NCBI RefSeq assembly: GCF_016623585.1
Contig: NZ_JAEHFY010000001.1
Location: 186,001-250,000, forward strand
Length of the DNA: 64,000 bases
Direction of reading: 5' to 3'
From: Pedobacter segetis
Lineage (GTDB): Bacteria; Bacteroidota; Bacteroidia; Sphingobacteriales; Sphingobacteriaceae
Shown: positions 213-60,561 of the stretch, piece after piece
Position numbering within the stretch: the first letter of the stretch is position 1
Layout: each line of letters begins with the position of its first letter
Program-made: the position numbers and the translations under genes
The notes under the pieces: model-generated
The model's database searches: none
The model's input: only the letters and a program-made list of their open reading frames with translations
Told to the model about the DNA's origin: nothing

Positions 213-470
213 CGGTTCTTTTTTCATTACCCGTTAGAGCTTTTTTCATATTTTTTATTGGCCATAACGGTAACATCTCTTGGTTTTTTAAAATCAAAAA
301 AGTGTTTTTTTTAACCGGTTTTTTAGAGTATTATTGGTAATAAAGCGCATATTTATTGGTTTTAGCTTTCTTGTATGGGTAAATAAAAAACGATGGCAAA
401 ACAACAACAATGTCAATAGTTCTTATCGGTTGTAAATCCTTTGTTTATATTTGCACTTTAACAAAAAAGA
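213..470. other. Intergenic leader of the pterin genes
   Basis: No open frame of note. The stretch is AT-rich with several T runs. The only recognisable signal is a TATATTTG hexamer-type element at 446-453, listed separately. Confidence 0.5.
446..453 (+). promoter_or_regulatory. Putative -7 promoter element upstream of the PTPS gene
   Basis: TATATTTG is an exact match to the Bacteroidota -7 consensus TAnnTTTG and lies 17 bases before the ATG at 471. No good TTTG is seen at the usual -33 distance, so the call rests on the -7 box alone. Confidence 0.45.
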
Positions 471-14184: not shown

Positions 14185-14292
14185 GCTTTTCAGGCGTAGG
14201 GCTTTATCGGTAATCAGTTAATTATGTTATGGGAATTGTATTCGGTAGTCAGAAAAATATTAGAAGAAAATTTGCGGCCGGTTAGAGCCTAA

Positions 14293-14386
14293 TCAACCAA
14301 TGAACTAAATTCAACTTTTTACAAGCCTAATGAACTAATTCAACCAATGAACTAAATTCAACTTTTTAATAGCCTAACAAACTAAT
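14293..14386. repeat. Two tandem 47-bp units directly before the response regulator start
   Basis: Unit 1 (14293-14339) and unit 2 (14340-14386) both begin TCAACCAATGAACTAAATTC and differ at only a few positions near their ends. Unit 2 ends four bases before the ATG at 14391. The motif AATGAACTAA recurs four times inside the array, with one copy changed. It can be a binding array, a leader duplication or a slippage-prone tract. Confidence 0.75.
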
Positions 14387-14390
14387 TATC

Positions 14391-37647: not shown

Positions 37648-37769
37648 CTCCGCTCAGCATGACAAAGCGGCTCCGCTCAGCATGGCAAAGCGGCTCTGCT
37701 CAGCATGGCAAAGCGGCTCCGCTCAGCATGGCAAAGCGGCTCTGCTCAGCATGGCAAAGCGGCTCTGCC
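37648..37769. repeat. Tandem array of five 23-bp units (minisatellite)
   Basis: Units start at 37648, 37671, 37694, 37717 and 37740, each 23 bp of the form CTCYGCTCAGCATGRCAAAG plus CGG, with a truncated sixth unit. Variation is limited to C/T at position 4 and one A/G. The first unit, with the preceding CTTCGA, is the inverted version of the repeat at 37571-37624, so the array probably grew from one interspersed repeat. Its frame is open but the translation is repetitive and not credible as a protein. Confidence 0.9.
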
Positions 37770-52290: not shown

Positions 52291-52359
52291 CCTGTGCTAT
52301 TTATATGGTTTTCTGCAAAAGCCCATTTAACTAACCAAGCATAAAAGCATAAACCAAAA

Positions 52360-52448
52360 TTATGCAAATTGGTAATAGAACTTATGTATATTGTAAATAT
52401 AATCTATGTAAATTGGCAATGAAAATTATGTAAATTGTAAATAGAAAT
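52360..52448. promoter_or_regulatory. Four 22-bp iterations upstream of the DUF4143 ATPase gene
   Basis: TATG anchors occur at 52361, 52383, 52405 and 52427, exactly 22 bp apart, each within a unit like TTATGTAAATTGGTAATAGAA. The last unit reaches the TTG that would serve as the -33 element of the promoter with -7 at 52460. The array looks like an operator occupied by a repeated DNA-binding protein. Confidence 0.65.
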
Positions 52449-57943: not shown

Positions 57944-58366
57944 ATGAAAAAGTTAATTACACTATTATTAGTTTGCTTTGCAGTTAGTGCATTTGCGCAA
58001 AAACAAGTTAAAGACCTAAAATATTATTACTACTACGCCAATCAGGATAAAGATTTTAACGCTTATTTGGCTGCTAGAAAAAGCTTCGACAATAAGAAAT
58101 TCGATTTTAAATTGCCGGCATCTAAAGAAGCCGTTGCAGAATTACAAACAAACGAATCTAAAATTTTTAAGAACGAAAGAACCTATGCCGAGTTTTTGAA
58201 GCGCTATGGGATGAAAAACGCTGGGGATTATGCAAAACTTTGGTTTAACCAAATGGAAACATTAAAAGTTTTTATCAAGAAAAACCCAGAGTTTTATAGC
58301 CTAAGCCCAAAAGAACGCCAGAACGTGATTGATAAATGGTATTTTTCTGAGATTGCGGCTAATTAG
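57944..58366 (+). CDS. Small secreted protein of unknown function
   Basis: The 140-residue product has a typical signal peptide (MKKLITLLLVCFAVSAFA, cleavage near 18). The mature 120 residues are mostly helical and highly charged (K, E, N, Y), with no recognised domain and no cysteine. It lies between the phosphatase gene and the convergent fic gene, whose stop is four bases away. It may be a periplasmic accessory protein; there is no evidence for function. Confidence 0.7.
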   Translation: MKKLITLLLVCFAVSAFAQKQVKDLKYYYYYANQDKDFNAYLAARKSFDNKKFDFKLPASKEAVAELQTNESKIFKNERTYAEFLKRYGMKNAGDYAKLWFNQMETLKVFIKKNPEFYSLSPKERQNVIDKWYFSEIAAN

Positions 58367-58370
58367 GGGC

Positions 58371-59504
58371 TTAAGATTGATCTGTTTTAAATAAGGCTAA
58401 ATAATCTTTAAAAACAAAAAGCCTATTTCTTTGCGCACCAGAGATTTCTGTGAGTATTTCTAATTTTTCTAAATCACTAATTAGCTTGTAAGATGTTACG
58501 TTAGATTTTCCTATCAGCACTTCTACCTTAGAAATATCGATAATAGGTTGTGTATAAAGATAATCGATGATGATTTTTGCATCACCACTTCTATTGCGTA
58601 ATGTTTGCACTTTAGACTCTAGCTGTTTTTGTAGCTGTAAAATTCCATCAAAGGTGGCCACTCCTTTTTTTGCGGTTTCTATAACGCCCGTTAAGAAAAA
58701 TTTTAGCCATTGATTGATGTTATTATTAGTTCTAGCTTGCATCAGGTTATCATAATATAGTTGTCTGTGGTTTTCAAAAAAATCTGACAAGTATAAGATG
58801 GGCTGTTTTAAAAGTCTTTTATTAACCAAATAAAGCGTTATCAATAAACGCCCAACCCTCCCATTACCATCTAAAAAAGGGTGTATGGTTTCAAATTGAT
58901 AATGTATGATGGCAATCTTGATTAAATCTGGTAAGGGATTAATCTCGTCATTTGCAAACTTTTCTAAATCCGACATTAAATCATTAATGGAAGTATGCAC
59001 CGGGGGTACAAAAGCCGCATCATTTAACGTTGCCCCACCAATCCAATTTTGACTGCTTCTATATTCTCCAGGCAATTTATTTTTTCCCCTTACACCCTGC
59101 AATAATATTTTGTGTGTTTGTTTAATTAAGCGAGAAGAAAAAGGTAAAGAGTGAAGCAATTTTACTGCCTCATTCATGGCGCTGATATAGTTTTGTACCT
59201 CTTCCCAATCGTCTCTCTTTTCTATTCCTATTTCTTCTTTCCTCAAAAAAGCTTCCTCCATATTGGTTTGAGTTCCTTCTATTTTTGATGATTGCGTAGC
59301 TTCTTTGGCAATATGCATCCTGATATATAAATCGATGTTTACATAATTAGAATACATATCCAACCTACCCAATTGCCTATCCGCTTTGCTCAACATCTGA
59401 ATAATTTCCATATTATCCAATTGCCAACTCCTATTGATTTCGCTTGGCTGAAAGCTTTTGTAATAACCTTGATTAAGGTACTCGCCTGATTTATAATTGT
59501 TCAT
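58371..59504 (-). CDS. Fic-family protein (class II, self-inhibited AMPylase type)
   Basis: The 377-residue protein has a Fic_N-like N-terminal part with the inhibitory motif (S/T)xxxE(G/N) as SSKIEGT near 80. The Fic core carries the full active loop HPFLDGNGRVGR near 215, with catalytic H and the E/N/R set. A C-terminal winged-helix domain (about 310-370, DISKVEVLIGKSNVTSYKLI) suggests DNA binding. Fic proteins transfer AMP or related groups to protein hydroxyls. The inhibitory helix in the same chain makes this class II. The gene has 41-bp repeats directly upstream, so it probably represses its own promoter. Confidence 0.9.
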   Translation of the reverse strand: MNNYKSGEYLNQGYYKSFQPSEINRSWQLDNMEIIQMLSKADRQLGRLDMYSNYVNIDLYIRMHIAKEATQSSKIEGTQTNMEEAFLRKEEIGIEKRDDWEEVQNYISAMNEAVKLLHSLPFSSRLIKQTHKILLQGVRGKNKLPGEYRSSQNWIGGATLNDAAFVPPVHTSINDLMSDLEKFANDEINPLPDLIKIAIIHYQFETIHPFLDGNGRVGRLLITLYLVNKRLLKQPILYLSDFFENHRQLYYDNLMQARTNNNINQWLKFFLTGVIETAKKGVATFDGILQLQKQLESKVQTLRNRSGDAKIIIDYLYTQPIIDISKVEVLIGKSNVTSYKLISDLEKLEILTEISGAQRNRLFVFKDYLALFKTDQS

Positions 59505-59517
59505 TTTATTTAGAAAA

Positions 59518-59609
59518 CTTAAATAAAGATAACCTTATTTAAGAAAAACAGCAAAAAACTTAAATAAGGAATTTATTATTTAAGAAAAACAGCAAAAAAC
59601 TTAAATAAG
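59518..59609. promoter_or_regulatory. 41-bp repeats with inverted motif upstream of fic
   Basis: CTTAAATAAG occurs at 59559-59568 and 59600-59609, with a near copy CTTAAATAAA at 59518-59527: a constant 41-bp period. Its inverse, (C)TTATTTAAG, is at 59534-59543 and 59576-59584. The pair forms inverted arms around AAAAACAGCAAAAAA, repeated twice. The block starts 13 bases before the fic start and covers the promoter region. It is a likely operator array. Confidence 0.7.
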
Positions 59610-59694
59610 ACAGGAAGTATTATTATAACAATACATCTATAGCATTGCATTAGGGGGGGGAAATAAAGAATTGTGAAAATTTTAATATCCTAAC

Positions 59695-59736
59695 AAAAAA
59701 GCCTCACAAAGACCTAGGTCTTTGCGAGGCTTTTTT
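59695..59736 (-). terminator. Strong bidirectional terminator after the lipoprotein gene
   Basis: AAAAAAGCCTC-A-CAAAGACCT pairs with AGGTCTTTG-C-GAGGCTTTTTT, a near-perfect long stem with A and T runs on either side. Confidence 0.9.
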
Positions 59737-59751
59737 AGCGAACTCTAACCG

Positions 59752-60561
59752 TTACTGTTTTAAGGTAACGGTTCTTTCTACCATTGTATTGTCTCCGCTA
59801 ACATCTTTTCCGTTAGCATCTTGTAATTGAATCTTTAATTTTAACTCGCCCATTGGTGCGTTTTTGATAAAATATGGTTGCCATTTATCAACTGTAAAAG
59901 TGGTATCCCCAACATCAACTTTAACTTTATAGCCATCAGAGGCTAAAGTTGCATTTTTAACATAAAAATCTAACAATAAATTTTGGGTGTCTTTACCGGC
60001 ATATTCTCCTTTAGGTCTGCTGTAAAATAGCATCGGGGCCTTAGATTCTTCTAATTTTACATAATTTCCCTTTTCATCAATTTTAAAATGAACCAGCACA
60101 GCGGCGTTGGGAGATTTAACCGATAAATGATAAGATCGGGAAAGGAAACACAATAAATAATGTTCAGAATTTAAAGGTAGGGTAACCGTGTTTTCTGGTT
60201 TGTACAGAGCTTGGTAGGGCTTATTGTCCATAATAAAATGGATGTGCTGGCCTTTATCAGAATTAGCGCACTCACCAGAATTCATATCCATGGTCTGTTT
60301 AGTAAGTTCGTAATTGGCCACATCAAAATTGATCATCATTTTGGCAGAATCTGTACCCACCATTTCAGTTGATACATCTTTAACCGTTAATTTGGCCGTA
60401 GGGAAATCATCGGCTTCGGCCAATGGTGCAATGCTCATTTTTTTGTTAATGGTGCTATCAGCGTTGCTATCGGCGGTTTTGGTATTCTGGTTACAAGCGC
60501 CTAGGCTTGCTAAGGCAATTAAGCCAGAAAAAACTAAAGGGTAAGAAAATTTTAATTTCAT
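59752..60561 (-). CDS. Lipoprotein of unknown function
   Basis: The 269-residue product has a lipoprotein signal ending LASLGAC (C23). The mature protein is beta-rich with blocks FDVANYELTKQTMDMNSGECA, HIHFIMDNKPYQALY, LLCFLSRSYHLSVKSPNAAV, and PMLFYSRPKGEYAGKDT. The 'GQHIHFIMDNKPY' stretch resembles DUF4399-like copper/phosphopeptide-type lipoproteins, but the match is loose. A strong terminator follows, and the upstream gap is AT-rich with no clear box. Envelope location is supported; function is not. Confidence 0.7.
   Translation of the reverse strand: MKLKFSYPLVFSGLIALASLGACNQNTKTADSNADSTINKKMSIAPLAEADDFPTAKLTVKDVSTEMVGTDSAKMMINFDVANYELTKQTMDMNSGECANSDKGQHIHFIMDNKPYQALYKPENTVTLPLNSEHYLLCFLSRSYHLSVKSPNAAVLVHFKIDEKGNYVKLEESKAPMLFYSRPKGEYAGKDTQNLLLDFYVKNATLASDGYKVKVDVGDTTFTVDKWQPYFIKNAPMGELKLKIQLQDANGKDVSGDNTMVERTVTLKQ

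Follow-up and report, generated by a model that had tools for sequence, protein, structure and literature searches.

The fic gene and the repeats ahead of it

The window analysed here is a 64,000-nucleotide stretch of the Pedobacter segetis genome (contig NZ_JAEHFY010000001.1, positions 186,001 to 250,000). On its minus strand, at 58371 to 59504, it carries a fic gene encoding a protein of 377 amino acids, which the open reading frame, Pfam, PADLOC, and sequence and fold matches place among the class II Fic proteins of the SoFic family. Pfam recognises a Fic_N domain (E = 2e-22) and a Fic domain (E = 2e-19), and its sequence contains SSKIEG, the inhibitory motif near the N-terminus, as well as HPFLDGNGRVGR at the active site; together these make it a class II Fic, as an earlier note on this sequence had claimed. 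A Fic motif was found in 139 of 144 homologues and an inhibitory motif in 143. The PADLOC SoFic profile PDLC03963, from a library that provides no cut-off, matched residues 14 to 373 with an E-value of 6.2e-117. With 167 bits the protein missed the cut-off of the NCBIfam SoFic equivalog NF046030 (550 bits), and it should therefore be regarded as a SoFic relative and not as a curated SoFic equivalog. SoFic chains are its best sequence matches and three of its top four matches by fold: the AlphaFold2 model of the protein (pLDDT 87.6) aligns with SoFic chains 3zec, 3zcn and 3eqx at Z scores of about 38 (3eqx: Z 38.1, rmsd 2.9, 350 residues aligned). This model predicts a C-terminal winged helix in which helix 335-347 (58464 to 58502, minus strand; block pLDDT about 94) occupies the recognition position; the same helix emerged as the top segment in the covariation analysis described below. 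The earlier claim that Fic has a winged-helix domain of its own thus held, on the strength of the model and of the fold match to SoFic.

Upstream of the gene, at 59514 to 59609, lies a putative operator array, assigned to neither strand, made up of two full 41-bp units and a partial third. Its presence is shown by two methods: Tandem Repeats Finder reported a period of 41 with 2.3 copies, 89% matches and a score of 150, and a repeat search delimited 41-nt copies at 59514-59554 and 59555-59595, 85% alike, followed by 13 nt of a third copy from 59596. A motif scan placed five half-sites of alternating orientation in the array, three of them exact and two with one mismatch. From the gene-distal end, these are half-site 1 (exact CTTATTTAAG, 59600 to 59609, minus strand), half-site 2 (ATTATTTAAG, one mismatch, 59575 to 59584, plus strand), half-site 3 (exact CTTATTTAAG, 59559 to 59568, minus strand), half-site 4 (exact CTTATTTAAG, 59534 to 59543, plus strand), and the gene-proximal half-site 5 (TTTATTTAAG, one mismatch, 59518 to 59527, minus strand). 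The edge of the repeat is 9 bp, and the nearest half-site 13 bp, from the fic start codon at 59504. Both the 41-bp period, with its two full units and one partial unit, and the five inverted copies of a 10-bp motif over the fic promoter had been described in the earlier note, and both descriptions held.

The motif is AT-rich and nearly palindromic, and over the window as a whole the CTTATTTAAG 10-mer (at most one mismatch) is not enriched, with 19 occurrences against a shuffle mean of 16.6. Since single 10-mers are as common as in shuffled sequence, the signal lies in their clustering and spacing: five occur inside 92 bp, where the rate in the window would give about 0.02 (a post hoc calculation). 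When the composite CTTATTTAAG-N15-CTTAAATAA was searched in the whole genome with at most one mismatch, it was found only at the fic array, and no other site appeared within two mismatches. Fifteen other places in the genome match the composite, all with three mismatches, against five for a reversed control pattern. The absence of a second genomic site within two mismatches is thus shown; it led us to reject a regulon and to view the array as a private switch. The window also holds tandem arrays elsewhere, at 37648-37765 (23 bp x 5.1), 14289-14387 (47 bp x 2.1) and 52357-52448 (22 bp x 4.2).

A promoter-like sequence is embedded in the array. The promoter consensus of Bacteroidota is TAnnTTTG with an upstream TTTG, and at 59524 to 59555 on the minus strand a pattern match, one mismatch from TAnnTTTG, gave the candidate TTTG (59555-59552)-N20-TATCTTTA (59531-59524), whose -7-like box overlaps half-site 5. 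Among near homologues, a perfect TAnnTTTG occurs no more than 60 nt upstream of the gene in 23 of 55 loci, against 4, 1 and 1 of 55 in control stretches, and TAnnTTTG with TTTG 18-21 bp ahead of it occurs in 10 of 55, against 1 and 0 in controls. In only 10 of these 23 homologues does the -7 box share positions with an operator 8-mer; elsewhere it falls mostly between the last two called half-sites. The earlier note suggested that the gene is silenced by default. A promoter lying within the array would agree with this, which without expression data remains an inference.

At 59695 to 59736 (minus strand), an inverted repeat that is 95% complementary forms a terminator-like hairpin ending the upstream gene, and it separates that gene from fic, which therefore stands alone. 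A strict terminator scan listed no terminator, this hairpin included, and a sigma-70 scan was likewise uninformative. On the other side, a convergent open reading frame ends at 58366, 4 bp from the fic stop codon, and thus leaves no room behind fic for a gene like AS1, the downstream 47-aa antitoxin that, unlike the situation here, has been reported for E. coli SoFic (PMC12249575). Carriage by phage was rejected, as just two weak phage records reached E <= 1e-30, both from Brochothrix phage BL3.

A repeat layout kept upstream of fic homologues

The analysis was extended to 161 homologous loci, from which we removed 2 without a usable frame, 4 duplicates, 10 with short, broken or cut-off frames, and 1 with short upstream DNA. 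All 144 loci kept have an intact fic frame and upstream DNA; lags were counted in 142 of them, owing to length or runs of N. A 9-mer repeated directly at a lag of 40 to 42, with no more than one mismatch, was present in 117 of the 142 upstream regions, compared with 14 of the 142 downstream controls. The mean count for a single lag was 8.4; lag 41 was seen in 77 upstream regions and lag 40 in 63. Conservation of the layout, which is shown by these counts, persisted after thinning to less than 70% identity (64/85 upstream versus 10/86 downstream, the upstream count omitting one locus with a run of N). In the count for named loci (49/69), locus L044, which carries such a run, inflates the figure by one. 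Among 70 further loci, obtained by a SoFic profile search and from paralogues, the lag 40-42 repeat was found in 45; this set includes near-identical rows (for example L195, L200 and L206), and its L201 is the same as L143 of the first set.

An inverted motif at this lag was called in 128 of the 144 loci. Motif calls for single loci that score under about 3 are unreliable, and the counts for the family do not depend on them individually. The 16 loci for which no array was called are mostly from Proteobacteria of high GC content, and in some of them fic immediately follows another gene. The motifs differ from one homologue to another, and include CTTAAATAAG, CTAAAATAAG, TTTTGCAA, CCTTGACTAT, TTTAACTATA, AAAGTAAAATAA, TGCAAATA and TGAAAATATA, among others. 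With regard to the motif search proposed in the earlier note, the layout recurs, and the letters of CTTATTTAAG are missing before many orthologues.

These data bear on the possibility that the repeats form an RNA-level element (leader hairpins) or arose by chance tandem duplication of AT-rich DNA. In its favour are the AT-rich, nearly palindromic motif and the chance-level frequency of its single copies in the window. Against it, the layout is kept among homologues whose letters are unrelated. As the candidate promoter is at the gene end of the array, most of the array would not be transcribed; an RNA leader was rejected on this ground, the array being mostly upstream of the candidate start, and for want of any Rfam match. 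We regard this explanation as very unlikely.

Hardly more credible is the proposal that the repeats mark the ends at which a fic cassette recombines or moves. Three observations speak for it: (i) the operator of a locus (at least two copies) also occurs just behind its fic stop codon in 7 of 174 loci, against none of 174 in three control stretches, (ii) TGTCGA arrays lie behind fic in L219 (about 2069-2260), L260, L261, L225 and L210, and (iii) the presence of fic is patchy, with 5 of 18 genomes of the genus carrying it. Against it, the array is found only upstream, over the promoter, at most loci. Moreover, homology to one fic-less relative ends at 59726, inside the terminator of the upstream gene and beyond the array. 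A comparison with empty sites was uninformative, since homology to fic-less relatives stops at 59725-59752 and the far side is not collinear within the stretches compared. As a separate observation, L129, L151, L144, L061, L204 and L245 likewise have their own operator array just past the end of fic. In loci of this kind fic has arrays on either side, except in L261, which has only the downstream one.

Operator letters and the recognition helix

We then asked which part of the protein best accounts for the similarity of operators between loci. After controlling for whole-protein identity, the best predictor over 117 non-redundant loci was the 10-residue window 332-341; taken by clade, the top window was 332-341 in the near clade (46 loci) and 333-342 in the far clade (71 loci), and the best single columns were K340 and V336. 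In an enlarged set of 162, the operator of one protein was scored on the promoter of the other. Among pairs of proteins 55-70% identical, this cross-score had a median of 5.5 bits where at least 5 of 7 helix residues agreed (403 pairs), against 0.4 bits where at most 2 of 7 agreed (473 pairs). No other testable 7-residue segment ranked above 335-341, whether at 55-75% identity (265 segments) or below 55% (341 segments). Because the pairs are not independent, p-values cannot be taken literally, and only the ranks among segments count.

The covariation of operator and helix is thus shown, and it has several limits. When the comparison was restricted to the 58 disjoint nearest pairs, residues 61-70 scored higher (0.419) than the helix (0.358). 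Segment 289-298 came close to the helix window in the near clade (0.291 versus 0.314). With a first, cruder operator score, the top window in the far clade was 33-42 (0.215) and not the helix (0.208). With the layout constant, no 7-residue stretch of the protein predicts the operator letters as well as the recognition helix does, a ranking that rests on sequence alone, with no binding assay. The earlier note would have held its reading refuted by the lack of its motif upstream of orthologous fic genes having the same C-terminal domain; taken literally, that test would have counted many orthologues against the reading, but wrongly, because their arrays keep the layout and differ only in letters that vary as the helix varies.

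The genome itself offers an instance. A second gene of the SoFic family (G000:C44:119551-120612, locus L219) carries arrays of CATGTCGA, spaced by 40, rather than CTTATTTAAG. As the two genes have different arrays, one cell would contain two related Fic proteins with two unrelated operators built to the same plan.

Binding of the array by a regulator other than Fic is made very unlikely by these results. Nothing specific supports it, beyond the fact that separate repressors with multi-repeat operators are known at defence loci. One is RptR, which, in a manner resembling the array described here, represses a defence locus through several promoter repeats; unlike Fic, it is a separate small regulator and not the defence enzyme, and its palindrome TAGCTA lies in direct repeats (PMC12255303). 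Against such a regulator, the operator letters follow the recognition helix of Fic and differ between paralogues of the same genome, and fic in the window stands alone between the terminator-like hairpin and the convergent gene.

A relation between one helix and one set of letters could be followed further. Where the helix reads KRQTA, at least two TGTCGA sites were present upstream in 7 of 8 loci, versus 1 of 98 others; the sole locus with these sites and another helix, L296, reads KRQAA. The KRQTA locus without upstream sites, L261, has six of them downstream. Before any E. coli fic promoter was inspected, we set the prediction that SoFic there would combine KRQTA with TGTCGA arrays at a spacing of 40-41. 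It was tested on three loci, out of 278 genomes with a SoFic gene. The motif was as predicted in all three, with four or more TGTCGA/TCGACA sites per locus inside 170 bp; two of the loci showed the helix KRQTA, and the gene of the third is frameshifted; and the spacing prediction was met in one only, with a spacing of 40 in that locus and 70 in the others. In E. coli NCTC86 (L297), 16 exact TGTCGA/TCGACA copies extend over about 590 bp upstream of fic, with same-strand spacings of 30, 40 and 70 bp, all near whole helical turns.

A proposed autorepressor

The reading we favour, and which we judge likely, is that the array is the operator of an autorepressor, with Fic binding to and repressing its own promoter. 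Binding, repression and release are all inferred. Fic would bind the array through its C-terminal winged helix, as dimers or as a chain of dimers, on half-sites whose orientation flips at intervals of roughly two helical turns, with 41 bp per pair. Bound Fic would cover the promoter, and the enzyme, by analogy with its SoFic relatives a toxic AMPylating defence protein, would be held at a low level. Departure of the protein from DNA, or a shift of the C-terminal domain upon binding of ATP or a target, may then open the promoter and allow the enzyme to act. Autoregulation by the winged helix of Fic, as put forward in the earlier note, is strongly supported by the sequence evidence (layout conservation and helix covariation), without binding data.

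The nearest precedent is CccR of Yersinia pseudotuberculosis. This class II Fic protein has a C-terminal HTH and acts as a repressor of its own promoter, through inverted 10-bp repeats (PMC9755527); to our knowledge, no other case of autorepression by a Fic protein is known. The protein of the window resembles it in being a class II Fic with a predicted C-terminal winged helix, and in the inverted repeats of its own promoter. In CccR, a C-terminal fragment binds the repeats and the dimer is needed. Unlike the array of the window, the CccR operator is a single pair of repeats, separated by 26 bp and different in sequence. CccR is a secreted T6SS effector; the relevant sections of PMC9755527 hold no array and no family-wide code. 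With SoFic the protein of the window shares domain order, fold (Z 38 to 3eqx, 3zcn and 3zec) and motifs, and the E. coli SoFic gene, like the fic gene studied here, has an operator array by our computation. Promoter binding by SoFic is not treated in the relevant sections of PMC12249575, the authors of PMC10628234 state that its DNA binding had not been shown, and we found no report of operator arrays of SoFic genes or of SoFic autorepression in the literature searched. The novelty appears to lie in the scale of the pattern, a lattice that is kept throughout a defence family and whose letters change quickly, in step with the recognition helix; this too is inferred from sequence alone.

Whether binding to DNA also restrains the enzyme itself is a possibility that has not been shown. 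It is raised by two reports: wild-type EcSofic is toxic even when leaky, and its C-terminal domain, which is needed for toxicity, shifts with ATP (PMC12249575), while for CbFic2 of Coxiella burnetii DNA binding was measured and linked to a switch between AMPylation and deAMPylation (PMC10628234). CbFic2 is likewise a class II Fic with a C-terminal HTH; unlike the protein of the window, it targets host histones, and no operator is known for it.

Carried further, this idea would make the array a DNA antitoxin beyond its role as operator: bound Fic would be inactive or deAMPylating, the sites would serve as a sink, and the enzyme would be freed once the array is lost, as might happen when host DNA is destroyed or taken over by a phage. 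In support, arrays often exceed the needs of simple repression (10 half-sites each in L118 and L119, as well as the 16 copies in E. coli NCTC86), CbFic2 has been proposed to switch from an AMPylating monomer to a deAMPylating dimer on DNA (PMC10628234), and the C-terminal domain of SoFic moves upon ATP binding and matters for toxicity (PMC12249575). On the other hand, the CbFic2 work used random DNA and there are no data on activity on and off DNA; EcSofic reportedly needs dimerisation for toxicity (PMC12249575), and is therefore a poor fit to a simple switch with an active monomer. We consider this explanation unlikely. The same doubt attaches to a bolder reading, in which the promoter array would be at once a DNA antitoxin and a damage sensor, the enzyme staying inactive on its private array and being released when phage attack removes the free sites in host DNA, and in which rapid divergence of the letters would keep each copy from responding to the other Fic arrays in the cell.

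SoFic, first reported as a phage defence, consists of a single gene and is widespread: its profile was matched in 127 of 296 sampled genomes of the phylum. The wild-type protein is reportedly toxic, and the means by which cells restrain it is open. Should the autorepressor reading be true, an operator array made and bound by the enzyme would explain this restraint and give the C-terminal domain a job, and the many natural pairs of helix and operator would amount to a data set from which a recognition code for winged helices could be read.

Two further observations concern the fic genes themselves. In L005, L106 and L299 the fic homologues are broken by stops or frameshifts, and in L299 the promoter repeats persist beside the broken gene, in line with a costly gene. 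The plasmid SoFic genes of Azotobacter (L293) and Croceicoccus (L294) lie between type I restriction-modification genes, encoding a methyltransferase and a specificity subunit.
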